Under the pieces are notes generated by a model, which was not told the DNA's origin, searched no databases, and saw nothing but the letters and a program-made list of their open reading frames with translations. Made by a program: the position numbers and the translations under genes. Shown in pieces: positions 29,724 through 59,810 of a stretch of DNA of 64,000 bases (positions are counted from its first letter, which is position 1; the number at the start of each line of letters is the position of its first letter). This stretch comes from Hemerocallis citrina (Eukaryota > Streptophyta > Magnoliopsida > Asparagales > Asphodelaceae), in the NCBI GenBank assembly GCA_017893485.1, contig CM030368.1, positions 111,235,549 through 111,299,548 of the forward strand, written 5' to 3'.

Positions 29724-30070
29724 TGTAATACCCCGATTTTCATTTATGAAAATTATTATTTTATTTTTGCACGTATTGTGCACGTGCAATTTTTATGTAG
29801 TATAAAATCTTATAATCATTTTCATTATGGATAATGTGTATATATATATGTATATGTGTTCTTTAATTGTTTTTATAAAGGCCAATTTTTCTTCAAATAA
29901 GCATAAGTCTTTTTAGCCCAAATCTAATTTATTTTGTAAACCATTATTTGGCCCATTAATTAAAGCCCATGAATTTATTTTTCCCTTTTATCACAACTTG
30001 TAATGTAGACTACTTTTATAAGAGTATTTTTATAAAATGTACAACTTTTTATATGGAGAACTAATGAATG

Positions 30071-30093
30071 CACGTGCATTGCACGTACACGTG
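30071..30093 (+). promoter_or_regulatory. Paired G-boxes upstream of the LTR promoter
   Basis: CACGTG at 30071-30076 and 30088-30093, about 180-200 bp before the TATA box. The 3' LTR has three (38552, 38569, 38586) through duplication of a 17-bp unit. CACGTG is a well-known plant bZIP/bHLH site. Confidence 0.6.
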
Positions 30094-30266
30094 CATGAAG
30101 CACACTATGGGCCGGTTTTGAATGGAGAGAAAAGGAAAAAGAGAAGTGGAGTTTTGGGTGGTAGTTGTTTGGATCATGGTTGGTTACTACAACTTCTCCT
30201 TAAATCCTAGCCTTTTATCTTTAACTCCTAGATTAATCCTAACCCTTCATTTGCTCCAATTTTTAG

Positions 30267-30274
30267 TATAAATA
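30267..30274 (+). promoter_or_regulatory. TATA box of the element C 5' LTR
   Basis: TATAAATA followed by a run of C. It lies in the LTR third expected for a promoter. Confidence 0.8.
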
Positions 30275-31190
30275 CCCCCCCCCCCCTAGCCTAGTTATTC
30301 TTGCACTCTTCATTCTCCAAAAAACCTATAGTAGAAAATACATTTGTTAGTAGTACATTATTAGAAGGAAGTGAGATAAAAGATTGAGAGTTTGTGGGTG
30401 AGTTGTGCTTGCAACCAAGGAAGGCCGGCATCACATAGGAGCTCACGAGATTGCATCTTTTGAGGCTCGGTTTTGCACATCAAGGAGGAGGAGGAACACT
30501 CTTTTGGCAAGCTCGTGAAGGACTCTTTTGTTTAGGAGGTGTTGCAAATTTTGTTCTCTCCAAATAAGGTGGGTGATTTTCCATATTTCTAATTAGATAT
30601 CATGCTAAGATTGATTGAAATGATAATGCATGAAAGTGATTAATAAGAGTACACTTAATGGGAAAAATGACTTATTAGTTGATTGAATTGATGCTAAATA
30701 GATTGCATGTTATTCCGTCATGAATCTTAAGTTGTATGTGAATTGTTTGTAGCTATGGAATGCTTGAATTAAAATTTGTTGTTAGTATCAAAACTAAATG
30801 CAAATGCTAGTAGATGAAATTGTTGCTTTATGTGATTAGATGGACTTTTGTGATAATGTTTAGAATAAGTAACTTGAAATATGTTTTTGGGTTTGTAAAA
30901 GGAAAATAAATAGGGAATTGATATAGGAAATATTAATGTTAAGTTGTATAAGAAATGTCAAAATGAGATGTGATAGTAGTAGTATACAATTTAAATTAAT
31001 TGTATCAAAAATATGTGTTAATTACGGGAAAAATTATTTTTTAAAATTACTGGAGTATCAAATATTGTTTAAATGGATAGTCTGGAGATTTAGTGAAAGC
31101 AAAACTAAAATAAGAGCTTTGAACATCGAAATGTTCTAATTGAACAGAGAATTGATTGAAACAAAATTCGAGTTGTAGTTGAGACAACTT

Positions 31191-31283
31191 GAGCCTATAG
31201 CTCAAGTGGTCGGTAGGCTCTTTAGCGCTACAGTGGCGCGATGTAAGTGGTCGAGGTTGCTGGTTCAATTCTTGAGAACACCA
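31191..31283 (+). other. tRNA-like module 1 (A box/B box) in LTR
   Basis: A-box-like TAGCTCAAGTGG (31198-31209) and B-box-like GGTTCAATTCT (31262-31272), ending ACACCA. The start GAGCCTA pairs with TAGGCTC 16 nt later. Distance from A box to B box is 64 bp, as in tRNA genes with a long variable arm or an intron. It is not a functional tRNA by eye. Confidence 0.55.
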
Positions 31284-31364
31284 ATCTTTTTATGTGCATT
31301 TAAAATCTAATCAATTTTCAGTCCGAGAGCATTTAAGTCTCTGACCTTTCCTTATATTGATGAA

Positions 31365-31436
31365 CACAAGTAGCCCAGTGGCTAGTGTGCGTGGTTGGTT
31401 TCCCTTGGGTCACTGGTTCGAATCCTGGCTTGGCCA
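31365..31436 (+). other. tRNA-like module 2 (A box/B box) in LTR
   Basis: TAGCCCAGTGG (31371-31381) and GGTTCGAATCC (31415-31425). The 44-bp spacing equals that of an intronless tRNA gene, and the B box is a perfect match to GGTTCGANTCC. The stems of a cloverleaf are only partly paired. Confidence 0.6.
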
Positions 31437-32174
31437 GAATATTACATTTTTTTGAAAAAATGATTTTGTGGGTTTCTTGAGGTGTAAAAATTATGAAAAA
31501 ATACTATTGTTATTCAAAATTCATGTGAGACCTATGAAAATTAATTAGGAGTTATTGGAAGGAAATAAAGTATATTTTGGGAATAAAAGTATAGTTAGAA
31601 CTATAGCTTTACACTCTTATATTTCATGAAAAATGTGTTTTTCATAGAAAATTGAGATAAGTGCTAGAAAAGAAAATTTTGAAAGAAAGAAAGTATATGT
31701 TGTGAAGTTTGTATGAGTTATTCTTATTAAAGAATAGTGTGACAATAGTGAGTGGTGAATATTCACTTTGACTATATATTTGGGGATATGATTTTAATGT
31801 GGAAATAAAGGTTGGTTATGAAATACATGATGTATAATTGAACTCCATATATGGTTATTGACTCATGAAAAGTTTAGAAATCATGTGATTGGAAAAGAGA
31901 AATATTATTGAGTGAGAACTCAAATATGTGAATTTGTGAAATGAAATTGAAAATTAGGGTTTAGCCAAAACTCATCCCGGCAAGTGAAAAGTGATGAAAT
32001 ATGATTATTGACATTGAAGAGACCAAGTTTGGGTCGTGTGAAATGAAAATAATAAGACCGATAGTAGTGCGAGGGCTAACTCTAAGAGATTGATTTTGTT
32101 CATGATTTCATCATAATTAAGGATTAGTTACATAGCGAAGATGTGATGAAAGTAAGAGAAAAACATTGAGTATG

Positions 32175-32600
32175 AGGGCCATTGGATTGGCGGCGAGAGA
32201 GTATCCCACGATGTCCCATGATGAGTCATGATAGGGCGTGGATACTGCTCCAGAGTACCGTCCCGGTGGCGACGCTTATGGGTTGTTTGACGACTGCGGG
32301 TGGTGTCATGTCTATGGTAGAAGCTGAATTACCACAGGATGCCTGCATGATGAGTCATGTGTCAGTGCGTTGGGATTCCCTCCAGGGTGCCTAGACATGA
32401 GTTCGTATGTCAGAAAACATCTAGGATACTTACCGTAGTTACAGTAGTGGATTAAGTCATGACGAGGGATTGAACCCTATAAAATGAATAACGATTAAGA
32501 GGCTTGCCCTCGGACCTATGTAGTATAGGATACATAGAATCCGAACAAGTGCGCTTTAGTATCATGTAATATAAATAACTGCATGGAGGACTAAGTACAC
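32175..32600 (+). repeat. Conserved 3' LTR block with paired TGAGTCA
   Basis: ATGATGAGTCATG occurs twice (TGAGTCA at 32222 and 32351). The block is shared with 40645, 58790 and, more distantly, 17265. TGAGTCA is a bZIP (GCN4-like) site. Confidence 0.65.
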
Positions 32601-33006
32601 AATCACAACACGACATCAATAGGGTATTCCCTTTAGTTTGATAAGTGACAAGTTTGTGTTTGTTAAATATGGAAAATCAGTTATACTGTTTCCGGCATAG
32701 AGGGGATGGTCGTGTATAGTGTTCGTCGGTTGAATAAACTGACGTACCCACAGTTTTGTATGCAGGGTAAATTACATGATAAAGATTAAAGGAGAAATGA
32801 TGCTTAGAGATTATTCAAATGTGGATGTACCTTTATATAAATGTTGTAAATTTGCTTTCGCAGTAAAATGTATAGTGTAAAGATTTCTATGTAACTCTGA
32901 TGTAAAGTTAAAAGTTTTAAATTTCTTGTAAAATTGTACGGAAGAAGTGTAAAGATCCTGTGGAATCTCGAATTCAGTGTATTTTGGAATTCGGGGCATT
33001 ACAGAG

Positions 33007-33584: not shown

Positions 33585-33688
33585 ACCATTGTATCGTCTA
33601 CTGCTTTCATTTTGATGTCAAAAATGTTTTGAATTCGAATATATAAAGTTTGAAGTTCAATGAAATGGAAATATTGACTTAAAAGTTC

Positions 33689-34720
33689 ATGGATCTTTTG
33701 CATCAGAACATGGCTGGACAAAGAGTAAGAAATGGTGAAAGTCTAGACTTGGAAACGAAACTCGCGAGGGTCTATCAGACACTCAATGCCGTGGCCATGA
33801 ATCAGAACCAAGGAAGGGTACCTGCGAATCCGGTGCCCGAAGCAATCAAACTCGTGGAATTATTCAAACGGATGAAACCACCGGTGTATGAAGGGAAGTC
33901 AGACCCTGATACGGCTGACAACTGGATCAGGCAGGTAGAGACTATTTTCGAAGTCTTGGAGACCCCTGAAGGCAGTAAGGTGAAGTTGGCGACTCTGCAA
34001 TTTAAGAAGGATGCGGCTGTGTGGTGGCAGTCGATGAAGCAGAAAATGGGAGGTATTGTTCTCGTCTGGGAGGAATTTTTGGAGGAATTCTGTAGTCATT
34101 ACTTTCCTTCAGACGTCCAGGAGAAGAAGGCCATGGAGTTTCTGTCGTTGCAACAAGGTGGCATGTCAGTTAGGGAGTATGAGACTAAATTTACTCAGCT
34201 CTCAAGGTATGCTCCCCAACTGGTAATGGATGAGGCAAAGAAGGCTCGTAAGTTCGAGCATGGATTGAGGCTGAGCTTGAGGTCCCGGATGATACCTCTT
34301 GGTATCAGAAGGTTTGACAAACTGGTCAAGCGCGCGGCAGCCACGGAAGCAGACATGGAGCAGTTTCATGTTGTTCTAAGTCGGAGGAACAACTGGCAGT
34401 CTGGAAAGAGGCCCGCAAATTCTGGGAATTTCAAGGGTCAACCATCGGCACAAAGGTTTAAACCGACAGGGGCAAACGCTATCAATGTGGTTGGAGGACC
34501 TGGGAACAATGTTGTGAGACCTCCTGCAGTAAATTGCTACAACTGTGCTGAGACGGGACATTACAAATCTCAATGCCCCAAACTGTGGAGTGTTAATCGC
34601 AATGCACCAATGCAGCAGACTGGAAAGAGACCGTACCAACAAGGGCGAGTATTTGCCTTGACTGAAGCTGATGCTGATGAGGTGGATCATGTCATCACTG
34701 GTACGAGGACGGATGTTTAG
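33689..34720 (+). CDS. Element C Gag
   Basis: 343-codon intact Gag, the particle-forming protein. A second in-frame Met lies at 33710. The retrotransposon Gag core spans about residues 60-230, with PPVYEGKSDPDTADNWI, KDAAVWWQSM, FCSHYFPSDVQEKKAMEFLSL and GGMSVREYETKFTQLSRYAP. A CCHC knuckle CYNCAETGHYKSQC sits at residues 283-296. The LSLQQ/GGMSV region is continuous, unlike element A/B gag, where an intron interrupts it. The last five residues (TRTDV) are read from the candidate gag-protease intron, so unspliced RNA stops here and yields Gag alone. Confidence 0.95.
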   Translation: MDLLHQNMAGQRVRNGESLDLETKLARVYQTLNAVAMNQNQGRVPANPVPEAIKLVELFKRMKPPVYEGKSDPDTADNWIRQVETIFEVLETPEGSKVKLATLQFKKDAAVWWQSMKQKMGGIVLVWEEFLEEFCSHYFPSDVQEKKAMEFLSLQQGGMSVREYETKFTQLSRYAPQLVMDEAKKARKFEHGLRLSLRSRMIPLGIRRFDKLVKRAAATEADMEQFHVVLSRRNNWQSGKRPANSGNFKGQPSAQRFKPTGANAINVVGGPGNNVVRPPAVNCYNCAETGHYKSQCPKLWSVNRNAPMQQTGKRPYQQGRVFALTEADADEVDHVITGTRTDV

Positions 34721-34790
34721 AGGTTCATGTTGTTTCTTTTTCCCGTTTATTTAGTGAACTGTTACGTAATGTGTGTGTATTATGTAACAG
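34701..34790 (+). other. Candidate gag-protease intron of element C
   Basis: 90 bp, GTACGA...TATGTAACAG, with a U-rich tract, containing an in-frame TAG. Removing it joins HVITG to KLYLNGM in phase 1, giving a continuous Gag-protease frame. The same codon position is interrupted in element B (47978-48160). Confidence 0.7.
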
Positions 34791-35212
34791 GAAAACTTTA
34801 TTTGAATGGAATGAAAGCTATTGTTTTGTTCGATACTAGATCCTCTCATACTTTTGTGTCTCCTAAATTTGCTAAAGTGTTGGGAATTGAACCGAAGATT
34901 TTTTCAGACAAGATCTTAGCAGTAGCTACTCCATTAAGGGAGACTTTAACCACTGATCGGTACTATGTGGATTGCGAGATTGTGATTGGAGACAGAATCT
35001 TCAGAATTGATCTAATCGAGCTGACTATCTTGGGAGTCGATGTTATCATTGACATTGATTGGATGTCGGTGTACAGTGCAAGCATCGAGTGCAAGACCAA
35101 GACGGTAATAGTGAAGGCTCCAGGTGGACCTGAAGTCACTTTCCAAGGGAAGAAGAGGTGTTCTAGGTTGGTGGCAGCTATCCGCAAGGAAGAGATTCAT
35201 GTGGAAGTGTAA
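34791..35212 (+). pseudogene. Element C protease, altered active site
   Basis: The retroviral-type aspartic protease region follows the intron acceptor. The active-site triad reads Asp-Thr-Arg (34832-34840) in LFDTRSSHTFVSP, where the family has D-T/S-G; GGA to AGA would explain it. The second conserved motif is degraded (VDVIIDIDWM, where relatives have ILGMDWL). A TAA at 35210-35212 ends the frame two residues before the conserved VVRDYPTVF start of reverse transcriptase. It would normally cut the polyprotein. Confidence 0.9.
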
Positions 35213-38196: not shown

Positions 38197-38764
38197 TGTA
38201 ATACCCCGATTTTCATTTATGAAAATTATTATTTTATTTTTGCACGTATTGTGCACGTGCAATTTTTTTTGTAGTATAAACTCTTATAATCATTTTCATT
38301 ATGGATAATGTGTATATATATATGTATATGTGTTCTCTAATTGTTTTTATAAAGGCCCATTTTTCTTCAAATAAGCATAAGTCTTTTTAGCCCAAATCTA
38401 ATTTATTTTGTAAACCATTATTTGGCCCATTAATTAAAGCCCATGAATTTATTTTTTCCTTTTATCACAACTTGTAATGTAGACTACTTTTATAAGAGTA
38501 TTTTTATAAAAAATAAAATGTACAACTTTTTATATGGAGAACTAATGAATGCACGTGCATTGCACGTACACGTGCATTGCACGTACACGTGCATGAAGGA
38601 CACCATGGGCCAGTTTTGAATGGAGGGAAAAGGAAAAAGACAAGTGGAGTTATGGGTGGTAGTTGTTTGGATTATGGTTGGTTACTACAACTTCCCCTTA
38701 AATTCTAGCCTTTTATCTTTAACTCCTAGATTAATCCTAGCCCTTCATTTGCTCCAATTTTTAG

Positions 38765-38772
38765 TATAAATA
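38765..38772 (+). promoter_or_regulatory. TATA box of the element C 3' LTR
   Basis: TATAAATACCCACCCCCCC; same module as at 30267. Confidence 0.75.
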
Positions 38773-39660
38773 CCCACCCCCCCTAGCCTAGTTATTCTTG
38801 CACTCATCATTCTCCAAAAAACCTATAGTAGAAAATACATTTGTTAGTAGTACATTATTAGAAGGAAGTGAGATAAAAGATTGAGAGTTTGTGGGTGAGT
38901 TGTGCTTGCAACCAAGGAAGGCCGACATCACATAGGAGCTCATGGGATTGCATCTTTTGAGGCTCGGTTTTGCACAACAAGGAGGAGGAGGAACACTCTT
39001 TTGGCAAGCTCGCGAAGGACTCTTTTGTTTAGGAGGTGTTGCAAATTTTGTTCTCTCCAAATAAGGTGGGTTATTTTCCATATTTCTAATTAGATATCAT
39101 GCTAAGATTGATTGAAATGATAATGCATGAAAGAGATTAATAAGACTACACTTAATGGGAGAAATGGCTTATTAGTTGATTGAATTGATGCTAAATAGAT
39201 TGCATGTTATTCCGTCATGAATCTTAAGTTGTATGTGAATTGTTTGTAGCTATGGAATGCTTGAATTAAAATTTTTTGTTAGTATCAAAACTAAATGCAA
39301 ATGCTAGTAGATGAAATTGTTGCTTTATGTGATTAGATGGACTTTTGTGATAATGTTTAGAATAAGTAACTTGAAATATGTTTTTGGGTTTGTAAAAGGA
39401 AAATAAACAGGGAATTGATATAGGAAATGTTAATGTTAAGTTGTATAAGAAATATCAAAATGAGATGTGATAGTAGTAGTATACAATTTAAATCAATTGT
39501 ATGAAAATATGTGTTAATTACGGGAATAATTATTTTTTTAAATTACTGGAGTATCAAATATTGTTTAAATGGATATTCTGGAGATGTAGTGAAAGCAAAA
39601 CTAAAATAAGAGCTTTGAACATCGAAATATTCAAAATTCGAGTTTTAGTTGAGACAACTT

Positions 39661-39753
39661 GAGCCTATAGCTCAAGTGGTCGGTAGGCTCTTTAGCGCTA
39701 CAGTGGCGCGGTGTAAGTGGTCGAGGTCGCTGGTTCGATTCTTGAGAACACCA
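39661..39753 (+). other. tRNA-like module 1 in the 3' LTR
   Basis: A box TAGCTCAAGTGG (39668-39679) and B box GGTTCGATTCT (39732-39742), a better B-box match than in the 5' LTR copy. Confidence 0.55.
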
Positions 39754-39834
39754 ATCTTTTTATGTGCATTTTAAATCTAATCAATTTTCAGTCCGAGAGC
39801 ATTTAAGTCTCTGACCTTTCCTTATATCGATGAG

Positions 39835-39906
39835 CACAAGTAGCCCAGTGGCCAGTGTGTGCGGTTGGTTTCCCTTCGGTCGCTGGTTCGAATTCTGGCT
39901 TGGCCA
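39835..39906 (+). other. tRNA-like module 2 in the 3' LTR
   Basis: A box TAGCCCAGTGG (39841-39851) and B box GGTTCGAATTC (39885-39895), 44 bp apart. Confidence 0.55.
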
Positions 39907-41480
39907 GAATATTACATTTTTTTGAAAAAATGATTTTGTGGGTTTCTTGAGGTGTAAAAATTATGAAAAAATATTATTATTATTTAAAATTCATGTGAGA
40001 CCTATGAAAATTAATTAGGAGTTATTGGAAGGAAATAAAGTATATTTTGGGAATAAAAGTATAGTTAGAACTATAACTTTACACTCTTATATTTCATGAA
40101 AAATGTGTTTTTCAAAGAAAATTGAGATAAGTGCTAGAAAAGAAAAATTTGAAGGAAAGAAAGTATATGTTGTGAAGTTTGTATGAGTTATTCTTATTAA
40201 AGAGTAGTGTGACAATAGTGAGTGGTGAATATTCACTTTGACTATATATTTGGTGATATGATTTTAATGTGGAAATAAAGGTTGGTTATGAAATACATGA
40301 TGTATAATTGAACTCCATGTATGGTTATTGACTCATGAAAAGATTAGAAATCATGTGATTGGAAAAGAGTAATATTATTGAGTATGACAACTCAAATATG
40401 TGAATTTGTGAAATGAAATTGAAAATTAGGGTGTAGCCAAAACTCACCCCGACAAGTGAAAAGTGATGAAATATGATTATTGACATTGAAAAGACCAAGT
40501 TTGGGTCATGTGAAATGAAAGAAATAAGACCAGTAGTAGTGAGAGGGCTTACTCTAAGAGATTGATTTTGTTCATGATTTTATTAGAATTAAGGATTAGT
40601 TACATAGTGAAGATGTGATGAAAGTAAGAGAAAAACATTGAGTATGAGGGCCATTGGATTGGTGGCGAGAGAGTATCCCAGGATGTCCCATGATGAGTCA
40701 TGATAGGGCGTGGATACTGCTCCAGAGTACCGTCCCGGTGGCGATGCTCGTGGGGTGTTTGACGACTGCGGGTGGTGTCATGTCTATGGTAGGAGCCGAA
40801 TTACCACAGGATGCCTGCATGATGAGTCATGTGTCAGTGCGTTGGGATTCCCTCCAGGGCGCCTAGACATGAGTTCGTATGTCAGAAAATATCTAGGATA
40901 CTTATCGTAGTTACAGTAATAGATTATGTCATGACGAGGGATTGAACCTTATAAGATGAAGAACGATTAGGAGGCTTGCCCTCGGACCTATGTAGTATGG
41001 GATGCATAGAATCCGAACAAGTACACATTAGTGTCATGTAATATAAATAACTGCATTAAGGACTAAGTACACAATCACAAAACGACATCAATAGGGTATT
41101 CCCTTTAGTTTGATATGTGACAAGTTTGTGTTTGTTAAATATGGAAAATCAGTTATACTGTTTCCGGTATAGAGAAGATGGCCGTGTATAATGTTCGTCG
41201 GTTGAATGAACTGACGTACCCACAGTTTTGTATGCTGGGTAAATGACATGATAAATATTAAAGGAGAAATGATGCTTAGCGATTATTCAAATGTGGATGT
41301 AGCTTTATATAAATGTTGTAAATTTGCTTCCGCTGTAAAATGTAAAGTGTAAAGATTTCTATGTAACTCTGATGTAAAGTGAAAAGTTTTAAATTCCTTG
41401 TAAAATTGTACGGAAGAAGTGTAAAGATCTTGTGGAATCTCAAATTCAGTGTATTTTGGAATTCAGCGCGTTACAGGTTC

Positions 41481-44168: not shown

Positions 44169-46804
44169 GCAAGTAACTTGTACTCAAATTCCTTTGTATG
44201 ATACAAATCAAAAATACTACTTATAGTGTAGTTGGGTTCTAGAGACAACTTGTGTGTATGTTATTTTTGATGGTTTTGTCTCTATAGTTCTATTTGACCA
44301 TAGTTGCCTCACGACACAATAATCGACATGAAAACAACTAGGTTTGACCATTCTTGATCTATTCGTATATGTGAGATAATTAGGTAAAATTATGTGTTTG
44401 ATGAGATCCATGTGATATGATGGTTGTGAATATATTACAAACTTTATTTCATGCTGTTTGGACACTTACTAGACTCTATACCATGTTTGATTGTGATTGG
44501 AACGAGTTTCGTGTGGTTTATGTTGGTTTTGTTTTCAAGAGAAAATCTGTATTTATCGATGATCAATTTTGATTTGTATTTTAGACCCTATTAAGGTCAG
44601 AGTTCTTAATTTTTGTATTAGACATGAATTGTAGAGAAACCTGTATTCTTGTTAAAATCTCTGACCTTGATCGATTTTGTTTTTGTATGAGTGAGTTATG
44701 GCTATTTTACTACAGAGGTGTAATCTATTTCTAGATTTCGTTCTTGATGATTTTGATGATTAAACTATTTTGATACTAGTCATAAATATATATTTTTGAT
44801 CTAAACCTTTGCACAGTATTTGTATACCTATCTAGTGATTTCCCAGAATTTTGGTGGATTTTTATTGATGAGTTTTATACGCCGTTTCATGCTTGTTTAT
44901 GAAAGCTATACTTACTGTATTTTGCTCGCTGTTCTGTAAAGAATCGTTTTTTTACCCTAGTTCCTTTTACTGTATGGAAAATATTTATGAAATAGGAAAG
45001 TTATCTTATTTTGTCTATTTTCATCTTCCTTTGACGGATTTGGATTTCATTTCACGGTTGACGAGATATCACAGTTTTCTTACGGCAGTGTTGGGAATTC
45101 CAGATTTGCCAAATTATCATTTCTTGATGTTTTCTGATTTTTGTTGACTGAACTAATTTTACTAGAATATTATGAAACTTTATATTATGATACTAGACAT
45201 ATAGGAGATTACTCCAGATTTTTCCTGGATTTATTTGAAGAGTTTTAATGCTGTTTTTCTATTAATGAATACGATTTACTGATTTCTGGCTGAACGCTTT
45301 TTCTGGATTAAAAACAGTTTTGAGTTATGATTTTGTGAAATACTATATGGCTTATATATAATCGCTGGATTCGTGTGGAAGTCTATTTTCCAGGTTCTTT
45401 GACGGATTCAGATTTGGATTTCTATAGTAACAGGAATCACTGTTTTAGTACTGTACTCTCATGCTGTCCTGAATATGAACATACACTGTTTTGCTCGTTT
45501 ATGTGACCGTATAACATCTATGCATGTTTATTCATTTCCCTGAACCTAATACTGACTATACCATGATAATTGGACACTATTTCATGCACTATCATGTCTG
45601 TTAATAACCATAATAAAAGTGATCAAGCTAGGATTTCTTAAGAAAAGATCTAGTAGTGGAAAATATGAAAACGTGTACTTGGAAGGAAACTAGTGTTCCA
45701 TATTGTTACTGTTAATGTTACTGTTACTTTTACTGCTAATTTTACTGTTATCTTTACTTCTACTGCTATTGTTACTGATACCTGAGTACAGTGCCCCATT
45801 ATGGTCCACTATGAAATCTAAAAGCAAAACTATTTGTTATAGCAACCATGTGTTATATTTTAGGGCGCATGAAGTGCTACCTAGCTAGTAATACCCACAA
45901 AACTGTAAGAACATAAGACTGATATTGTTAGACTGATACTGTTAGAATGATACTGTTAGACTGATACTGACTGATACTGTTATACTGTTACACTGATATA
46001 CTGAGCTTACTGTTACTGGACACTGTTAGTTGCCATATGACACTATACTTGACACATACATTGGTACTGTAAGTATACCATACTAGTTGACTTTGTTTTA
46101 CTGATTCATGCTAGTTATTACTGTTGATGCATTATTCCATGCTATTTGTTTACCTTTCCCATGTACTTGTATCATACATTATAAGTGGCCTGCAACTTGC
46201 ATTGACGGGTACTTGTTTTCTCTTTCCTTCTCCTGCAATTATTAATTACAGATTAGGATGGTCAACTGCCTGACGGCATTGGCGAAATGAGATATTAGTG
46301 CTGGATTTCTTGCTTATTAGTATTACTATTATTGTTGCTTTGAATAATGTATTTTGAGTACTTGGATGATTACTTTGTATTTGGGCGATGTGACCCAGGA
46401 TTTTGTCTTGTTGAGACTCTGATTTATTTGATCTTAATGTATTTTGTTTTAAGTAAATTCTGTTGGTTTATTAATTCAATTTTGCATGTGTGTGGTTGAC
46501 TCTTTTGCTTCCGACTCTGATTATTTTGTTAGATGTTGTACAGATTCTTGAATAGCTTATGGATGATGCAAATCATTCGCTGGGTTGAATCGCGTATTCA
46601 TATTCTGTATTCTTTTTGGGAAGTGGGGCGTGATAAGGCTTTTAATGGTATCAGAGGCCAGGTTTGGCTAATGTATTAATTGCCTAATATATTAGACAAG
46701 CTTGGCTCGAACTGAGATCGGCTCAATATTTCACCAACCATGCATACGTAAATGAATTATTATCAACTTTGATTCTGGATTCTAATTTTTTGATTTTTGA
46801 GCAG
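44169..46804 (+). other. Candidate leader intron of element B (GC-AG)
   Basis: The donor TTAAG|GCAAGTAAC at 44169 matches the GC-type consensus. The acceptor TTTTTGAGCAG ends at 46804, two bases before the gag ATG. The span is 2636 bp and removes AT-rich LTR sequence and the primer site. The equivalent interval in element C is 2593 bp. Inferred from sites only. Confidence 0.4.
45700..46030. repeat. TTACTG / ACTGATACTGTTAG arrays in the B LTR
   Basis: Degenerate hexamer-based runs at 45700-45785 and 45910-46030. Counterparts lie at 54120-54200 and 54340-54430, and reversed at 62100-62200 and 62335-62410. Confidence 0.8.
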
Positions 46805-46806
46805 CT
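46636..46806 (+). promoter_or_regulatory. Element B leader and primer binding site
   Basis: TGGTATCAGAGG at 46646-46657, ten bases after the LTR, is an initiator tRNA-Met site with a changed end. Confidence 0.88.
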
Positions 46807-47270
46807 ATGGCTCGTGGGAATTCTTCTCAGCCTGATCCGGTTGAGGCTGTCACTGCTGTACTTGAGCGGCTGATCAATCAGCAGCAAAACCACATCGATC
46901 TAGTGATGGATGCTCTTGAAGCTGCCTGTGTTCCGCCTCCCATTGTGCCTGTGTAGGAAAATATTCTGCCTCTTATGGATTTTATGAGGCTGCATTCCGA
47001 CCACTTTTCCGGTACTGAGATGCCTTTGGAGGCTGAACAGTGGTTGATCCGGACCGAGTGCATGCTCTTGGCAGCACGTATTACCGAGGCTGATAGGGTG
47101 GGCACGGTTTCCATCCAGCTGGTGGATTTGGCTCACATTTGGTGGATGACCGAGTTCGAGCGACTTGAGAGGCCTATTGCTTTGACTACTTTCACTCGGG
47201 GATTCTTGGAGAAGTTCTTCCCAGTAGTACTCGAGTTGAGATGGAACAACAATTCCTGGCCCTAAAACAG
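46807..47270 (+). pseudogene. Element B gag, first exon
   Basis: ATG at 46807 (MARGNSSQPDPVEAV). Conserved Gag motifs are FSGTEMPLEAEQWLIRTE, LVDLAHIWW and FTRGFLEKFFP. TAG at 46954-46956 replaces CAG, which is retained in the two sister copies. One C is missing in the run at about 47220 (TTCCCAG against TTCCCCAG at 55600), shifting frame just before the exon end. Restoring that base gives 155 codons ending LALKQ in phase 0 at the GT donor. It is otherwise the standard N-terminal half of a gypsy Gag. Confidence 0.9.
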
Positions 47271-47347
47271 GTTAAGTCATTATTCTATTTTGAAATTTTG
47301 TTACATAATTATTCAAACAATGTTGTAACATGGACTTCTTGAAATAG
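47271..47347 (+). other. Candidate intron within gag (element B copy)
   Basis: 77 bp, GTTAAG...GAAATAG, with TTGTAAC as a possible branch site about 20 nt before the acceptor. Unspliced reading adds 23 residues and stops at TGA, before the zinc knuckles. Confidence 0.75.
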
Positions 47348-47977
47348 GGTTCCAGATCAGTGGATGAGTATGTAGCTGAGTTTACTAGACTTAGCCGCTT
47401 CGTTGTCGTTCTTGTGGCAACCAAAGAGGATAGGGCTCGTAGATTCAAAAATCAGCTTGAGCAGGATATCAAGAGGCATCTTGTCTCTCTCCGTTTGCGT
47501 ACTTATGCTGAAGCTCTTGAGGCAGCTCGAGCTGAGGAGCAGGCTCGTGTTGGTTTGGTTCCTTCTCTGCGGATTGTTCTGCTTTCTGATGTTAGGCCTT
47601 CTGGTGGTCTCGTTCGGAGGCCTGTCCCAACCCATCCGGTCAGGGCAGCTTCGTATCCTTCTGCTGGTTTCCAGAAGGGTGGTTTTTGCGACCTCTGTCA
47701 GATGTTTTGGCATAAGCATAAGAATTGTTGGTGTGTCAACCGCTGGTGCTTTAGGTGTGGCCCACTGATCATTCAGTATGCGATTGTCCGCAGCAGCAGC
47801 AGGTGGCTCTTCCAGCCGGGGGTCCTATTTAGCAAGCAGGCCCAGCTCGTAGTCCAGTTAGGTTTCTGCTTCCTCCTCAGCGTTATATTTTCAGTCAGAG
47901 GACCGCTGTTCCGAGGAGAGGTCAGGCTTTCAACTTGACTGCTGCAGATGCTGAAACAGCTGAAGGAGTTGTGGTAG
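47348..47977 (+). pseudogene. Element B gag, second exon with two zinc knuckles
   Basis: Begins GSRSVDEYVAEFTRLSRF and is open over most of its length. Knuckle 1 CDLCQMFWHKHKNC is a clean CX2CX4HX4C. Knuckle 2 (CFRCG...) is damaged by small indels (compare CFWCGAADHSVRDC in the tandem partner). A GPV/R-rich linker leads to a tail ending AETAEGVVVG at a strong donor. The double-knuckle layout fits Tekay/Del-like chromoviruses and differs from the single knuckle of element C. Confidence 0.88.
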
Positions 47978-48160
47978 GTATCTTTTTTCTTTTTGTTTTG
48001 TTGTTGTTGTTTTGCTTTCTCTTTGTTTCTTTCTTTTGGTCTTGTTTTGCTTTCTTTCGGTCTTGTTTTGCTTTCTTTCCGTTATCTTTTTGCATTGTTG
48101 TTTCCCTTACCCTTGATTGTCTGCTTTTTTTTTCTTTCTCCATGTCTTTTGCTTCCGTAG
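47978..48160 (+). other. Candidate gag-protease intron of element B
   Basis: 183 bp; donor TAG|GTATCT, very long T-rich tract, acceptor GCTTCCGTAG. Splicing is in phase 1 and joins VVVG to VVLVCSFPARVLFD. The length is a multiple of three without stops, so retention inserts 61 mostly Phe/Leu/Val residues. Confidence 0.75.
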
Positions 48161-48637
48161 GTGTTGTCCTTGTTTGCTCTTTTCCCGCTCGTGTTCTCTT
48201 TGATATGGGGCAACCCATTCTTTTGTCTCCTCACGATTTTTTGCTCGCCATCAGTTGGATTGCAGCAACATGTCTGAGGCTTGGAACATTTTGATAGGTG
48301 GTGGTGTTGTCATTGTTCCCGTGAGTGCAGGCAATGTTCCGCTGTTATTGGGAATGCAGATTTCAAAGCCAACCTGATTATCATTGGGAATTCAGGATTC
48401 GACGTTATTCTAGGTATGGATTGGTTGGGTGAAGCCCATACCATTATTGATTGTCGTGCCAAGAAAGTTGTTTTAGGAATTCTAGATCAAGCAGAATTTG
48501 AGTTCCATGTCGGGGAGTCTTTCCTTGGCCGAACAAAGACTGCAGTTGTACAGGTGGATTGTGCGATGGAATTGCACTCAGGCTGTGAGGCTGCACCTTT
48601 AGTAGTTCGGGATTTCTTGGAAGTTTTTCCAGATTAG
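48161..48637 (+). pseudogene. Element B protease
   Basis: VVLVCSFPARVLFD is followed by Met-Gly (codons from 48202), so the D-T/S-G triad reads D-M-G. A frameshift near 48290 follows. The second half has NSGFDVILGMDWLGEAHTIIDCRAKKV, the conserved flap-to-C-terminal region, then APLVVRDFLEVFPD and a TAG at 48635-48637 at the reverse transcriptase start. Catalytically dead as it stands. Confidence 0.88.
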
Positions 48638-49920
48638 TTGCTTGGCTTAACCCCTGATAGGGAAGTGGAGTTCGATATTGATGTTCATCCTGGAACGACA
48701 CCGATATCGAAGAGTCCCTACAGGATGGCACCAGTTGAGCTAGCGAAGGTGCAGATTCAGGAGCTTCTTGATTTGGATTTCATCAGACCAAGTGTTTCAC
48801 CTTGGGGTGCTTCGGTTCTTTTTGTCAACAAGAAGGATGGTAGTCGTCGACTGTGTGTGGATTATCGGGAACTAAATAGTGTTATTATGAAGAATCGGTA
48901 TCCTTTACCTAGGAACGATGATTTGTTCGACCAGTTGAGTGGGGCTGCTGTTTTCTCAAAGTTGGATCTTCGTTATGGGTTTCACCAAGTCAAGGAGAAG
49001 GCTGCTGATATGCAGAAGACTGTATTCAGGACTAGATATGGGCACTAGAGTACCTTGTGATGCCATTCGGGGTCACTATTGTGCCAGCTGTATTCATGAG
49101 TCTTATGAACCTGGTCTTCTTTCAGTTCTTGGATAGATTTATGGTGGTTTTCATTGATGATATTGTGGTATATTCTCGGAATCGGGAAGATCACGCCGAG
49201 CATCTTAGAGTGGTTTTACAGACATTTAGAGAGAATCAGCTCTATGGAAAACTCTGCAAGTGCGAGTTTTGGCTCGACAAGATTTCTTTCTTGCGGCTCA
49301 TTATTTTTGGTGATGGTCTTTCTGTGGATCCAGCCAAGGTTGAGGCTGTGAAGGATTGGCCTATTCCTAAGTCAGTTTTCGAAGTTCGGAGTTTTCTTGG
49401 TCTTGCGGGCTATTATCGAAAATTCGTTCAAAAGTTTTTGAAGATTGTAGGGCCGTTAACCAAATTGACAGGAAAGGATCAAAGTTTTGTTGGTCTGGAG
49501 AGTGCAATGAGGCTTTTGTTGAGTTGAAGAATAGATTGACGTTAGTGCCTGTGTTGACTATTCCAGATGGTTCAGGCGGATTTGTAATTCACTGTGATAC
49601 CTCTGGTATGAGTCTTGGAGCAGTTCTTATGCAGAAGGACCGTGTCGTTACGTATGCATCGAGGCAGTTGAGGCCGCATGAAAAGAACAATCCTACTCAT
49701 GACTTGGAGTTAGCGGCGGTGATCTATACTTTGAAGCTGTAGAGACATTATTTACTTGGAGACCGCATGGAGATCTTTATAGACCACAAAAGTCCCAAGT
49801 ACGTTTTCACCCAGAAGAAATTGAACATGAGACAAAGGTGATGGTTGGAGCTTATGGCCGATTATGACATCAGTTTGCAATACCATCCTAGTAAAGTAAA
49901 CTTGGTGCCAGACGCTTTGA
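48638..49920 (+). pseudogene. Element B reverse transcriptase and RNase H
   Basis: Motifs: [60 protein letters not shown], frameshift near 49047, [13 protein letters not shown] and FIDD (49150-49161). Then [16 protein letters not shown], a frameshift near 49490, VIHCDTS (RNase H Asp), [13 protein letters not shown] 49740-49742 (Trp to stop), FIDHKSPKY, and [13 protein letters not shown]. The thumb/connection part is the direct counterpart of 19109-19866 in element A. Confidence 0.92.
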
Positions 49921-51475
49921 GAAGGAGACTGACAGTTATGTTTCTTACTCAGCAGAATGATCTTATTGAGCAGATGATGAGGTTGGATTTGGAGGTTTTG
50001 TTGCCGAGTTCTGGTCGGAGTTGTGTTGCGCTCAACCTTCAGTCTTCTCTTGTTGATCAGATCAAGGAAGCTCAGGCTGGTGATGCGCAGTTGCAGGGTT
50101 TTCGAGCTAAGGTTGAGTCTGGGACCAGAACGGACATGGTTATTCATGCCGATGGTTCGCTTCGTTTTAGTTCCCAATTGTGTGTCCCTAGAGGTGAAGT
50201 TCGTCAGAGGTTGCTTGAGGAAGCTCATCAGTCCTCGTATTTTATCCATCCTGGCGGTACTAAGATGTATCGAGATTTGAAGCTTCATTTCTGGTGGCAT
50301 GGTATGAAAAGGGTTGTAGCTCGGTTTTTTGCTCAGTGTTTGATCTGTCAGCAGGTTAAGGCAGAGCATCAGAGAACCGTTGGACTTCTTCAACCGCTTC
50401 CTATTCCGGAGTGGAAGTGGGAACATATCACCTTGGATTTTGTGACCACTTTGCCGAGGAGTCCTAAGGGTCACAATGCTGTTTGGGTGATTGTCGAATG
50501 TTTGACGAAGAGTGCTCACTTCATTCCTTTTCGTGTCAGTCAGTCTACTGAGAGCCTAGTAGAGAAGTACATGCAAGAGATTGTCAGGCTTCATGGGGTT
50601 CTAGTCAGTATTGTATCCGATAGGGATACGAGATTCAGATATCAGTTTTGGGAGAATCTTCAGGCTAGTTTGGGGAGTAAGTTGAAGTACAGTACAACTT
50701 TTCATCCCCAGACTGATGGACAGTCAGAGCGGACTATTCAGATTCTTGAGGACATGTTGCGATCCTGTATGTTGCAGTTCGGTGGATCTTGAGAGGACCA
50801 TTTGCATCTCGTAAAGTTCTCGTACAATAACAGCTTTCAGGCCAGTCTTAAAGTTGCACCGTTCGAGGCACTTTATGGGTGTAAATGCAGATCACCTGTG
50901 TGCTGGGATGATATTGGTGAGAGGTAGTTGTTGGGTCCAGAGTTGATCACCAGGACAGTTGATGCTGTGACTCAGATCAGAAAGCATCTTCAGGCAGCTC
51001 AGGATAGGCAGAGATGGTGGGCTGATGTCCATCGGAGGGTTTTGGAGTTTGTTGTTGGTGACCATGTTTTCCTTAAGCTATCGCCGTAGGGCGGTGTCAT
51101 TCGGTTCGATGATGGGAGCAAGCTTAGCCATAGGTTTATTGGACCATTTAAGATTTTGGAGCGAGTAGGCAAGGTGGCCTATCATCTTGCTTTGCCGCCA
51201 GCGTTATCAGGAGTGCACGATGTTTTTCATGTCTCTACAACTCTGGAGATATATTCACGATGAGAGTTACGTGATCGACTACTCTGAGTTGACCATGCGG
51301 CCGGATTTGACTTGTGAGATTCCGACAGTTGCTATTGTGATCGGCAAGAGAAAGTGCTTAAGAACAAAGTCATCAAATTGGTTTGTGTTGCGTGGAATCC
51401 TCGCTCGCCTAGTGAGTCGACTTGGGAGCTGGAGGAGGAGATTCAGCAGAAGTTTCCTCATTTGTTTGAGTAGTG
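49921..51475 (+). pseudogene. Element B integrase and chromodomain remnant
   Basis: The H2C2 finger is intact (HQSSYFIHPGG...CLICQQVK). The first core Asp is changed: VIVEC replaces VIVDR. The SDRDTRFRYQFW Asp and FHPQTDGQSER Glu remain. TGA at 50790-50792 replaces TGG, with stops at 50926 and 51086. GDHVFLKLS and [13 protein letters not shown] follow. A poor but recognisable chromodomain tail (KVIKLVCVAWNPRSPSESTWELEEEI) ends at LFE, followed by the polypurine region. Confidence 0.9.
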
Positions 51476-56336: not shown

Positions 56337-56368
56337 TGTATTGCCCTGATTTTCATTTAATGAAAATT

Positions 56369-56390
56369 ATATATATATATATATATATAT
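56369..56390. repeat. (AT)n microsatellite near the LTR start
   Basis: Eleven AT repeats replacing the TATTATTTT stretch of the other copies. Confidence 0.9.
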
Positions 56391-56886
56391 TTGCACGTAG
56401 TGTGCACATGCAATATTTTTAGTGATCTTTTTCATTATGATGAGTATAGATATTTATACATGTGTTCTTTAATTATTTTTAAGTAGAGGCCCTTTTTCAA
56501 TTAGACAAAAAGCCTCTCTTTTTAAAAATCCCAAATTTAATTCAATTTATTATTTTGGCCCAAAAACTAAAGCCCATGAGCTATTTTATTTTTAAATACA
56601 ACTTGTAATGTAGAATACAATTTGAAGATTTTTTTTTATGTAAAAATATAATGTACAAATTTTTGGAGACCAAGTTACATGCACGTGCATTGCACGTACA
56701 TGTGCAAAATGCACATGATGTACTAGGCTGGTTTGGAACTTTTGGAGAGAATAGGAATTTTCAAGTGGAGTCATGGTGGTGGTGGTTACTTGATCATGGG
56801 TGGTTAGTGTAACTCCTCCTTAAATCTTAGCCATTTGTTCCTAACTCCTAAGTTAATCCTAGCCTTCCATTTTTCTAGATTTTTAG

Positions 56887-56894
56887 TATAAATA
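56887..56894 (+). promoter_or_regulatory. LTR TATA box
   Basis: TATAAATACCCCCCTCCC, same module as at 30267. Confidence 0.75.
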
Positions 56895-57825
56895 CCCCCC
56901 TCCCCCCCTAGCCTAGTTATTCTTGTGCTAATTATTCCTCCAAACCTATAGTTCAATTATATTATCTAGTAGTTTATTAAGTGAGTAAAAGATTGAGTTT
57001 ATGTGTGGGAGTTGTGCTTGCAACAAGAGGAGGCCGGCATCAATCAAGGGAGGCTCGGGTTTTGGTGTGCTTGGGGTTGTGTGGGCGCCGACGAGGAGGG
57101 AAATCACTCTTTTGGCAAGGACATTTGTTTAGGAGGTGTTGCTAGTTGTATTTTCTCTCCAAATTAAGGTGGGTAAATTTTCCATATTTCTAATTAGGAA
57201 TGCATGCCAGATTTGAATGGAAAGTATGATGCATGAAAAATATTAACAAGAGTACGCATTTAATTGGAAAATTGACCTATTGATTGATTGAAATGTTGAT
57301 GTGAAACTGTATGTGGTTCTATCATTAAAACTTAAGTTGTGTGCGAATTGATTATAGCCATGGATTATGTGAAGAAAACTTCACTATTAACATTAAAAAT
57401 TATATGCAAGAGTTAGTAGATTGGCAATATTGCTTTATGTGCTTAAATGGACATTTTATGATAATGTTGTGATGAATGAAGTAAATTGTAGTTAGTATGT
57501 TTGTGAAATGAATAAACACAGAAAATTGATGTAGAGAGTAGTGAAATTAAAATGTCGAAAAGAAAAAGAAATGTGTTCGTAGTAGTATATAAATCTAACC
57601 TAATTGTATGGTAGAAAGGTGCTAATTATTGGGAAATACATATTTAATTATTGGAAAATTATTTTTATGTACTGAAGTATAATTCATGATGGGAATAATT
57701 AATCTGGAATTTTTACAGCATGATAGTGAGAGCAAAATGAAATGAGAACTTGATGAAAATCGAAATATTTTCCTAAACAGAGAGGGTTGATATAATTAAA
57801 AAAATGAGTTGCATTATGACAACCC

Positions 57826-57917
57826 GAGCCTATAGCTCGAGTGGTCGGGATGCTTTTAATCGCTACAGTATACACGGAGTTTCTCAGAGGTTGAGGGATC
57901 GAATCCCGTTGACACCA
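57826..57917 (+). other. tRNA-like module 1
   Basis: A box TAGCTCGAGTGG (57833-57844) and B box GGATCGAATCC (57896-57906), whose flanking G and C extend a GGG/CCC stem around a 7-nt loop. Ends ACACCA. Confidence 0.55.
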
Positions 57918-58001
57918 TACATTTTTGTTTCAAACACTTAAAAAAATATTAAGAGTCAGCCGAGAGCATTTAATGCTCTCAGCTCTGTTTCATACCGCTG
58001 C

Positions 58002-58075
58002 TGAAAGTGGCCTAGTGGCTTGTGCTTGTGGCTCGGTTCTCTCTGGTTGCGGGTTCAAATACTGGGCTCGGCCAG
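58002..58075 (+). other. tRNA-like module 2
   Basis: A box TGGCCTAGTGG (58008-58018) and B box GGTTCAAATAC (58052-58062), spacing 44 bp. Between the modules is a perfect hairpin GAGAGCATT/ATGCTCTC near 57962. Confidence 0.5.
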
Positions 58076-59617
58076 TATTTTAAGGTTGAGAAAAAATATT
58101 TTTTTGGGTTCTTGATGATTGAAAAAATTAGGGAAAAAAATATGATTATTACTCTAAAATTATGTGGGACTTATTGGAAATTATTTGAATGAAGTGGAGT
58201 ATATTGTGAGAACAAAAGTATAATTTAGAACTATAGTTCTACACTTGCATTTTTATAAAAGTTGTACTTTACAAAAGCACTTGAAATGAAATATTAGAAA
58301 AGAAATATGAATAAGAAAGGAATTATGTGAAGTGATGTGAATTATTCTCATTGGAGAATAGTGTGACAAATTATGAAGAGTGAATATTCATTTTTGATCG
58401 TATAACTAGTGATGTGGTTTTTAATGTGAAAATTATATTTCATGAATTACATGATGAATAATTGAATCCCATGTATAGTTATGGACTTTTGAATAATTTA
58501 AAAATCATGATTGGAAAAGAGAAATAATTTTGAGTACGACAACTCAACCATGTGAATTTATGAATTGAAATTGAAAATTAGAGTGTAGCCAAAGCTCACA
58601 CCGGCAAGTAAAAAATGATAAATTATAACTTTGACATTGAAAAGACCAGATTTGGGTCATTGTGAGTGAAAGAAATAAGACCGGTAGTAGTTAGAGGTCT
58701 AACTCTAGAATCTTGATTTTGTTCACGATTTCATTAGAATTAGTTACATAGTGAAGATGTGATGAAAGTAAGAGAAAAACATTGAGTATGAGGGCCATTG
58801 GATTAGCGGCGAGAGCGTATCCCATGATGTCCCATGATGAGTCATGATAGGGCATGGATACTACTCCAGAGTACCGTCCCGGTGGCGACGCTCGTGGGAT
58901 GTTGGACGACTGCGGATGGTGTCATGTCTATGGTAGGAGCTGAATTACCACAGGATGCCTGCATGATGAGTCATGTGTCAGTGCGTTGAGATTCCCTCCA
59001 GGGTGCCTAGACATGAGTTCGTATGTCAGAAAACATCTAGGATACTTACCGTAGTTACAGTAGTAGATTAAGTGATGACGAGGGATTGAACCCTCCCAAG
59101 ATGAAGAACGATTAAGGGCTTGCCCTCGGACCTATGTAGTATGGGATGCATAGAATCCGAACAAGCGTGCATTAGTGTCATATAATATAAACAACTGCAT
59201 TAAGGACTAAGTGCACAATCACAACACGACATCATTAGAGTATTCCCTTTAGTTTGATATGTGACAAGTTTGTGTTTGTTAAATATGGAAAATTAGTTAT
59301 ACTATTTCCGGCATAGAGAGGATGGCCGTGTATAATGTTCGTCGGTTGAATAAACTGACGTACCCACAGTTTTATATGCATGGTAATGACATGATAAAGA
59401 TTAAAGAGGAACAGATGCTTAAAGATTATTCAATGTTGTTGAATATTTATTTAAGTGTTGTAAATTTACTTCCGCTGTGCAATGTAAAGTGTAAAGTTTT
59501 ATGTAAACTCTGATGTAAAGTGAAAAGTTCAAATTTCCTTGTAAAATTGTACTAAATGAAGTGTAAAGATTCTGTAGAACTCTCGAATTCAGTTGTATTT
59601 GGGATTCGGGGCGTTAC

Positions 59618-59810
59618 ACTGAAACAGCTGAAGGATGGGGCAAGTATCTTTTTGCTTTTTGTTTTGTTGTTGTTGTTTTACTTTCTCTTTGTTTCTTTCT
59701 TTTGGTCTTGTTTTGCTTTCTTTCCGTTATCTTTCTGCATTGTTGTTTTCCTTACCCTTGATTGTCTGCTTTTTTTTTTCTTTCTCCTTGTCTTTATGTT
59801 ATCTTTCTGT
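59618..59810 (+). pseudogene. Gag end and gag-protease intron of the second tandem unit (truncated)
   Basis: After the TSD the sequence resumes ...ETAEG, a donor-like CAA|GTATCT at about 59645, and the T-rich intron of element B. It breaks off near 59800-59815, where A-type LTR sequence starts. The acceptor and the whole pol are missing. Confidence 0.85.

Follow-up and report, generated by a model that had tools for sequence, protein, structure and literature searches.

Why do two retrotransposon families carry, at the same codon between gag and protease, GT...AG segments that have no sequence in common? The question is raised by elements B and C, two gypsy-type LTR retrotransposons, identified as such by profile matches of their pieces, which lie in a 64,000-nucleotide stretch of Hemerocallis citrina DNA (the window). 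We found that the B segment evolves as introns do and that both segments are absent, exactly to the base, from close copies elsewhere in the genome. The behavior of the two segments supports their designation as introns. Judging from sequence, it is probable that they are spliceosomal introns of chromodomain-type gypsy elements, that spliced RNA is sometimes reverse transcribed, and that an RNA retaining the junction intron would yield Gag and one from which it has been removed would yield Gag-Pol.

Structure of the elements

The features of both elements are collected in Table 1. Pieces of element C gave profile matches to Retrotrans_gag, a zinc knuckle, the RVP_2 protease, reverse transcriptase (RT) and RNase H, and pieces of element B gave matches to RT and to the integrase zinc-binding domain; a profile search with the gag and protease pieces of B returned no match. 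A Tf2-type SH3 domain was found in both elements, and the Chromo profile scored 24.4 bits in B and 18.4 bits in C, both of which fall below the cut-off of 25.1. On the basis of motif likeness, both are candidate members of the Tekay (Del) clade of chromoviruses. Element B has a candidate primer site, TGGTATCAGAG, directly after position 46645, which presumably matches tRNA-Met. The end of the B leader, TTGATTTTTGAGCAGCT (46790-46806), stands directly before the gag ATG and resembles a 3' splice site, so that B may also possess an intron in its leader. Between 42601 and 56336, an integrase piece of the B family is followed twice by an LTR and an internal part, all in head-to-tail order and with the middle LTR shared, as in tandem recombinants. 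An LTR-like stretch of a C-related family (56337-59618), 76% identical to the C LTRs, is inserted in the second B copy about 22 bp ahead of its junction intron.

Table 1. Features of elements B and C and their positions in the window
Feature	Position	Strand	Remark
B intron I2, gag-protease junction, 183 bp, phase 1	47978..48160	+	
B intron I1 within gag, 77 bp, phase 0, in-frame stop	47271..47347	+	
B gag exon 1, degraded in window copy	46807..47270	+	
B gag exon 2, degraded	47348..47977	+	
Degraded B pol, from protease through chromodomain-like tail	48161..51473	+	
Second B copy: gag end (about 25 bp) and most of I2, behind inserted LTR	59619..59795	+	
C junction intron (gag-protease), 90 bp, phase 1	34701..34790	+	
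In-frame TAG within C intron	34718..34720	+	Stop codon in 29/30 copies
C gag (capsid, zinc knuckle), without I1	33683..34700	+	
C protease (RVP_2)	34791..35212	+	
C 5' LTR	29724..33004	+	Repeat pair, 94% alike
C 3' LTR	38197..41476	+	Repeat pair, 94% alike

Position and limits of the junction introns

The coordinates and phases that an earlier note on this DNA had assigned to the two GT...AG segments were verified, and its observation that they share codon and phase while being unrelated in sequence is borne out. The boundaries read GTTGTGGTAG/GTATCT...CCGTAG/GTGTTG in B and ATCACTG/GTACGA...TAACAG/GAAAAC in C (slashes mark the predicted cuts), and each intron interrupts the Gly codon of VxxG, one base of which lies upstream. 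When offsets of up to 30 nt to either side were scanned, GT and AG stood at the required distance at offset 0 alone in either element. Translations read after exact excision gave VxxG and 13 residues to the protease Asp in C and in B, as in uninterrupted relatives. The earlier reading of the intronic TAG also holds for C, where unspliced RNA would end as Gag and spliced RNA would enter Pol. An in-frame ATG is found six bases past this TAG (34727-34729), from which the frame is open into the protease. For B, the stop-in-intron picture has to be corrected in that the retained I2 of the window copy is free of in-frame stops; among 50 B-clade copies, however, 41 would acquire a stop or a shifted frame if I2 were retained.

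Sequence evolution of the junction introns

Matching copies were sought in the 3.78-Gb genome. For B, a 401-bp query, which favors intron-bearing copies, gave 3,799 first-look candidates; the best 40 were scored, all 40 of which extended across the junction, and 20 of these, including the window copy, were aligned. Among the 20 copies, pairwise divergence was 0.180 in I2 versus 0.097 and 0.085 in the flanks, and I2 had 2.9 indels per 100 aligned bases compared with 0.15 and 0.23 in the flanks, a roughly 20-fold and 12-fold excess. The length of I2 ranged from 156 to 183, with remainders modulo 3 of 0, 1 and 2 in nine, five and six copies, respectively. Its 5' end was GT in 16 of the 20 (GC in two, AT in two), its 3' end was AG in all 20, and in 19 of them a branch-like TTGAT preceded that end by 40-48 nt. 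The T content of I2 was 0.59-0.63, as opposed to 0.33-0.36 in the exons, in the six copies measured. In a wider set of 50 B-clade copies, GT was found in 44, TTGAT in 39 and AG in all 50, the last figure being partly by construction because many 3' ends were located by AG. In B, the limits of I2 are kept while its interior changes in sequence and length, and it is U-rich with a branch-like motif, both of which are marks of a spliceosomal intron. Given its fast divergence, free length and T-richness, I2 therefore behaves as an intron, unlike a coding spacer.

For C, 30 copies (the window copy included) were fetched from the best 40 scored of 6,533 candidates and, the window copy apart, were 94-96% identical to the query. 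The intron was 90 bp long in 27 of the 30, 89 bp in two and 87 bp in one; it began with GT in all 30, ended with AG in 28, and retained its internal stop in 29 (TAG in 26, TAA in three). Its T content was 0.42 versus 0.30 in the exons, a weaker difference than that in B. Divergence was 0.027 in the intron versus 0.037 and 0.022 in the flanks; these copies stem from a burst too recent for the interior to have diverged, and the comparison is silent on selection. A tandem-duplication origin of the C intron was considered and found to be unsupported, since identity at offset 90 was 0.26, which is ordinary for the region, and the p values were 0.006 for the exon-1 tail against the intron's 3' half and 0.89 for the other half. 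None of the 2,026 candidates in a protein search with C gag reached E <= 0.001, and the six pattern-matching stretches obtained when viral contigs were searched with C RT included no relative.

Copies lacking the junction intron

A search with the protease profile PF08284 (RVP_2) was used in addition, which yielded 46,181 candidates, the best 150 of which were scored. This search favors uninterrupted frames, the DNA searches with B and C favor intron-bearing copies, and the frequencies derived from them are biased accordingly. The starts of the 150 matches on the profile (copied by hand) were two-peaked, with 102 at positions 2-6, six at 8-15 and 42 at 19-23, and the second peak corresponds to the point where I2 breaks the frame. 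From the first group 30 of the 102 were fetched, all uninterrupted by profile match (24 from the B clade, six from other families). All six of the middle group were fetched, and four carried I2 while two were uninterrupted by profile match. From the last group 35 of the 42 were fetched; 26 carried I2 and nine were gag-deleted. By eye, the gag-deleted copies (L083, L084, L088, L095, L096, L097, L104, L106 and L109) join the primer-site leader to the 3' part of I2; such derivatives occur in at least two families and are perhaps a recurrent non-autonomous form.

In all 24 B-clade copies that lack I2, the flanks are joined as AG/GT with zero bases remaining. Intronless L055 lies near intron-bearing L094/L098, L065 near L099, L066 near L101, L057 near L085 and L100, L061 near L082, L076 near L090, L079 near L116, and L056 and L062 near L115 and L119; L052 and L068 are placed among L003-like copies that carry I2. 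In the samples taken, no intron-bearing copy was found for L063/L074/L078 or L064/L071 and no intronless copy for L089/L091/L093. Relatives with an uninterrupted frame had been named in the earlier note as a result that would speak against the intron. Such relatives do exist, but in the B clade they mostly occur beside intron-bearing copies and the break between the two forms is exact, so that there they argue for splicing.

A tree was constructed from 240 bp upstream of the junction for 50 copies with and 24 copies without I2, drawn from B and its sister families. The I2 state changes 17 times on this tree (16-18 over bootstraps), at least 12 of the changes being forced by well-supported (starred) branches, with 25 of the 71 inner branches open. 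Shuffled labels required a mean of 20.5 changes, and 19 of 500 shuffles were as low as the observed 17; the I2 state is thus nearly as scattered as shuffled labels. Smaller trees gave eight changes (gag, 640 bp), eight (300 bp downstream) and four (pol, 1,350 bp, with fewer rows). The gag and downstream flanks are concordant in grouping L061 with L082/L087 and L057 with L085; in the pol tree, from which L082/L087 are missing, L061 is placed elsewhere on a poorly supported branch. Change counts on a tree do not in themselves separate gain from loss, and the changes are read as losses because I2 sequences align among B copies and removal is exact. A gain of I2 only within B, with intron-free families between B and C, was dropped once intron-bearing members of those families had been sampled.

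Places in the whole genome at which the exact flanks lie 0-30 bases apart were also collected, with no selection for frame. All 17 such places in B and all seven in C, which may stem from fewer events, were exact removals, and in B the other 30 lengths within this range were all empty. Random deletion would give a spread of lengths, so that a single exact length counts against it. With up to three mismatches allowed, the exact joined junction of C was found at 70 places (six of them without mismatch). The pattern for the exon/intron border, which is shorter, matched 6,908 places; backward controls gave 0 in both searches. One variant recurs among the 70 joined places, which indicates that some intronless C copies have multiplied. 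Intronless L123 is 96.7% identical to intron-bearing L025, and L125 and L126 are 93.7% and 91.8% identical to their nearest intron-bearing C copies; L122 and L124, at about 86% identity, represent an older subfamily. A tree of five joined places and 21 of the 30 intron-bearing copies (nine were left out owing to unfitting anchors) shows four state changes among the 26 copies, only one of which is forced by starred branches.

A second intron in B gag

The gag of B contains a second intron, I1, with the boundaries CAG/GTTAAGT...AAATAG/GG, which the earlier note had overlooked. It was compared in 20 rows, consisting of 18 fetched copies (the window copy included) and two further stretches of the window; L002 and L007 were left out since their sequence could not be aligned there. 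I1 is present in 18 of the 20 rows. L003 is rearranged at that spot, and L014 lacks I1 almost exactly and keeps I2. Fifteen of 16 I2-less copies of the B superfamily keep I1, and L067 is without either intron, so that all four states occur (both introns, I1 only, I2 only in L014, and neither). Short repeats are found at the I1 ends of L014 and L067, and the absence of I1 from these copies is not base-perfect. By eye, L051, L055, L064, L065 and L071, from diverged sister families, carry an I1 of other sequence at the same base, the I1 stretch of L071 being open and in frame, while I1 is absent from the sister-family copies L063, L074 and L078.

Alternative explanations

The earlier note had proposed an ancestral intron. 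This holds within the B clade, where the junction intron is old as judged from the several diverged families whose intron-bearing copies are interrupted at the same base. As for whether the B and C introns go back to a single ancestor, the odds for one origin or for two are about even. Two origins would mean separate insertions at a conserved proto-splice site, CAG/GT, within the VxxG codons, and the VxxG codons of uninterrupted copies indeed often read GCAGGT or ACAGGT. The introns of B and C also show no visible resemblance in sequence, and of the 40 hits scored for the L060 family, 21 aligned straight through the junction, the others being mostly short matches elsewhere. Identical codon and phase, on the other hand, fit common descent. 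Three lineages, the B clade, C and the families of L053-L060 type, are distinguished in an unrooted protein tree. Because exact loss is frequent, the lack of an interruption in a third lineage says little against a common intron. Moreover, one L060-type hit, C1:439471722, starts exactly at the first post-junction base and may be an interrupted copy.

A different explanation for the scattered distribution is that co-packaged RNAs exchange the intron-bearing and intronless states through template switching, with no fresh loss of the intron each time. Reverse transcription recombines, and many subfamilies hold both states. In L061, L057, L052 and L068, however, both flanks group with intron-bearing copies, so that each exchange would require a pair of crossovers no more than a few hundred bases apart, and an intron-free RNA template would be required anyway. 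We consider this explanation improbable.

Exact losses could also be DNA deletions between short end repeats, in which case the segments would be merely intron-like inserts. AGGT stands at both ends of I2 and GG at both ends of the C intron, and a microhomology deletion could therefore yield the same product. That this accounts for the losses is nonetheless very unlikely, given that among gaps of 0-30 bases every removal was exact (17 of 17 B places, 7 of 7 C places), that the C repeat is just two bases, and that the sequence of I2 evolves like an intron. The chance is equally slim that the C segment is a translated spacer, with Gag stopping at TAG and Pol produced either through readthrough of this stop or from a restart at the ATG at 34727, for although it is in frame with a single stop and its 90 bp are kept in 27 of 30 C copies, exactly these 90 bp, with the limits GT...AG, are missing at 70 genome places, its B equivalents are of free length, and the TAG context does not fit the leaky-stop consensus.

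Proposed mechanism and significance

If the segments are spliceosomal introns whose spliced RNA is sometimes reverse transcribed, reverse transcription would normally copy unspliced RNA, and an intron-free RNA that is occasionally reverse transcribed would leave an exact intronless copy in the genome. Judging from the border counts of C (6,908 versus 70), copies with the intron seem to be much more numerous than those without it, in which case unspliced RNA would be the usual C template. Retention or removal of the junction intron would decide between Gag and Gag-Pol. In the B clade, removal of I1 would also be needed in order to read through the capsid, and the two introns would divide replicating (unspliced) from translated (spliced) RNA. 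Exact loss would speak for splicing of some RNA, not for control of the Gag to Pol ratio.

A broader proposal is offered tentatively, as a possibility that we hold to be rather doubtful as a whole. In a large branch of plant gypsy elements, an old gag-protease intron may act as the switch between Gag and Gag-Pol, B and C having it by common descent, and I1 may help to sort packaged unspliced RNA from translated spliced RNA. Copies of spliced RNA would then arise continually yet seldom give rise to lasting lineages, and selection at the level of the element would keep the introns.

A spliced junction intron, if true, would provide a plain answer to how these families achieve a greater output of Gag than of Pol. 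The exact intronless copies would naturally record the RNA that had been reverse transcribed and could be used to gauge how often it was spliced; they also suggest that a retroelement can retain an intron despite a life cycle that removes it. Annotation based on reading frames would label elements of the B and C type as broken at the junction.

Comparison with known systems

Most groups of plant LTR elements have a single-frame polyprotein (PMC6317226), and a 2025 review describes introns as generally absent from plant LTR elements, with Ogre and EVADE as exceptions (PMC12786077). Ogre carries an intron that is spliced between GAG-PROT and RT (PMC6317226). This element of the Tat lineage of Ty3/gypsy is spliced within its polyprotein, as B and C would be; its intron lies between protease and RT, however, whereas those of B and C lie between gag and protease. 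B and C further differ from Ogre in having a chromodomain-like tail and many exact genomic losses and, in B, a second intron in gag.

In the Ty1/copia elements BARE1 and EVADE, facultative splicing yields a Gag RNA apart from the full-length RNA (PMC3735527, PMC12786077), and the BARE1 intron is U-rich (PMC3735527). Their spliced RNA encodes Gag only, which is opposite to the direction proposed for B and C, where the spliced RNA would encode Gag-Pol. CRR is a chromovirus of rice. It is also a spliced gypsy element, in which rt is spliced out and two ORFs are created (PMC3735527); unlike that of B and C, this splicing does not connect gag to protease. The sunflower elements Tyran and Varan are plant LTR elements with spliced isoforms that have a truncated gag (PMC7730604), and the structure of these isoforms differs from that of B and C. 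Tekay members are missing from the expressed set described for sunflower in the same source (PMC7730604).

Loss of an intron via an RNA intermediate was observed in Ty elements with an artificial intron (PMC12786077). That intron was placed by experimenters, whereas the intron of B and C is the element's own and has been lost many times in one genome. For Diaspora of soybean, packaging and reverse transcription of a spliced subgenomic RNA was suggested as a one-step change (PMC1142308); this proposal explains the loss of env, while B and C lose a small intron and have left many exact products. No report of a chromovirus intron at the gag-protease junction or in gag was found in the literature searched, in which subscription journals are thinly covered. 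Splicing of a polyprotein is itself known from Ogre; the gag-protease position, the repeated exact loss and the intron in gag had no counterpart in that literature.
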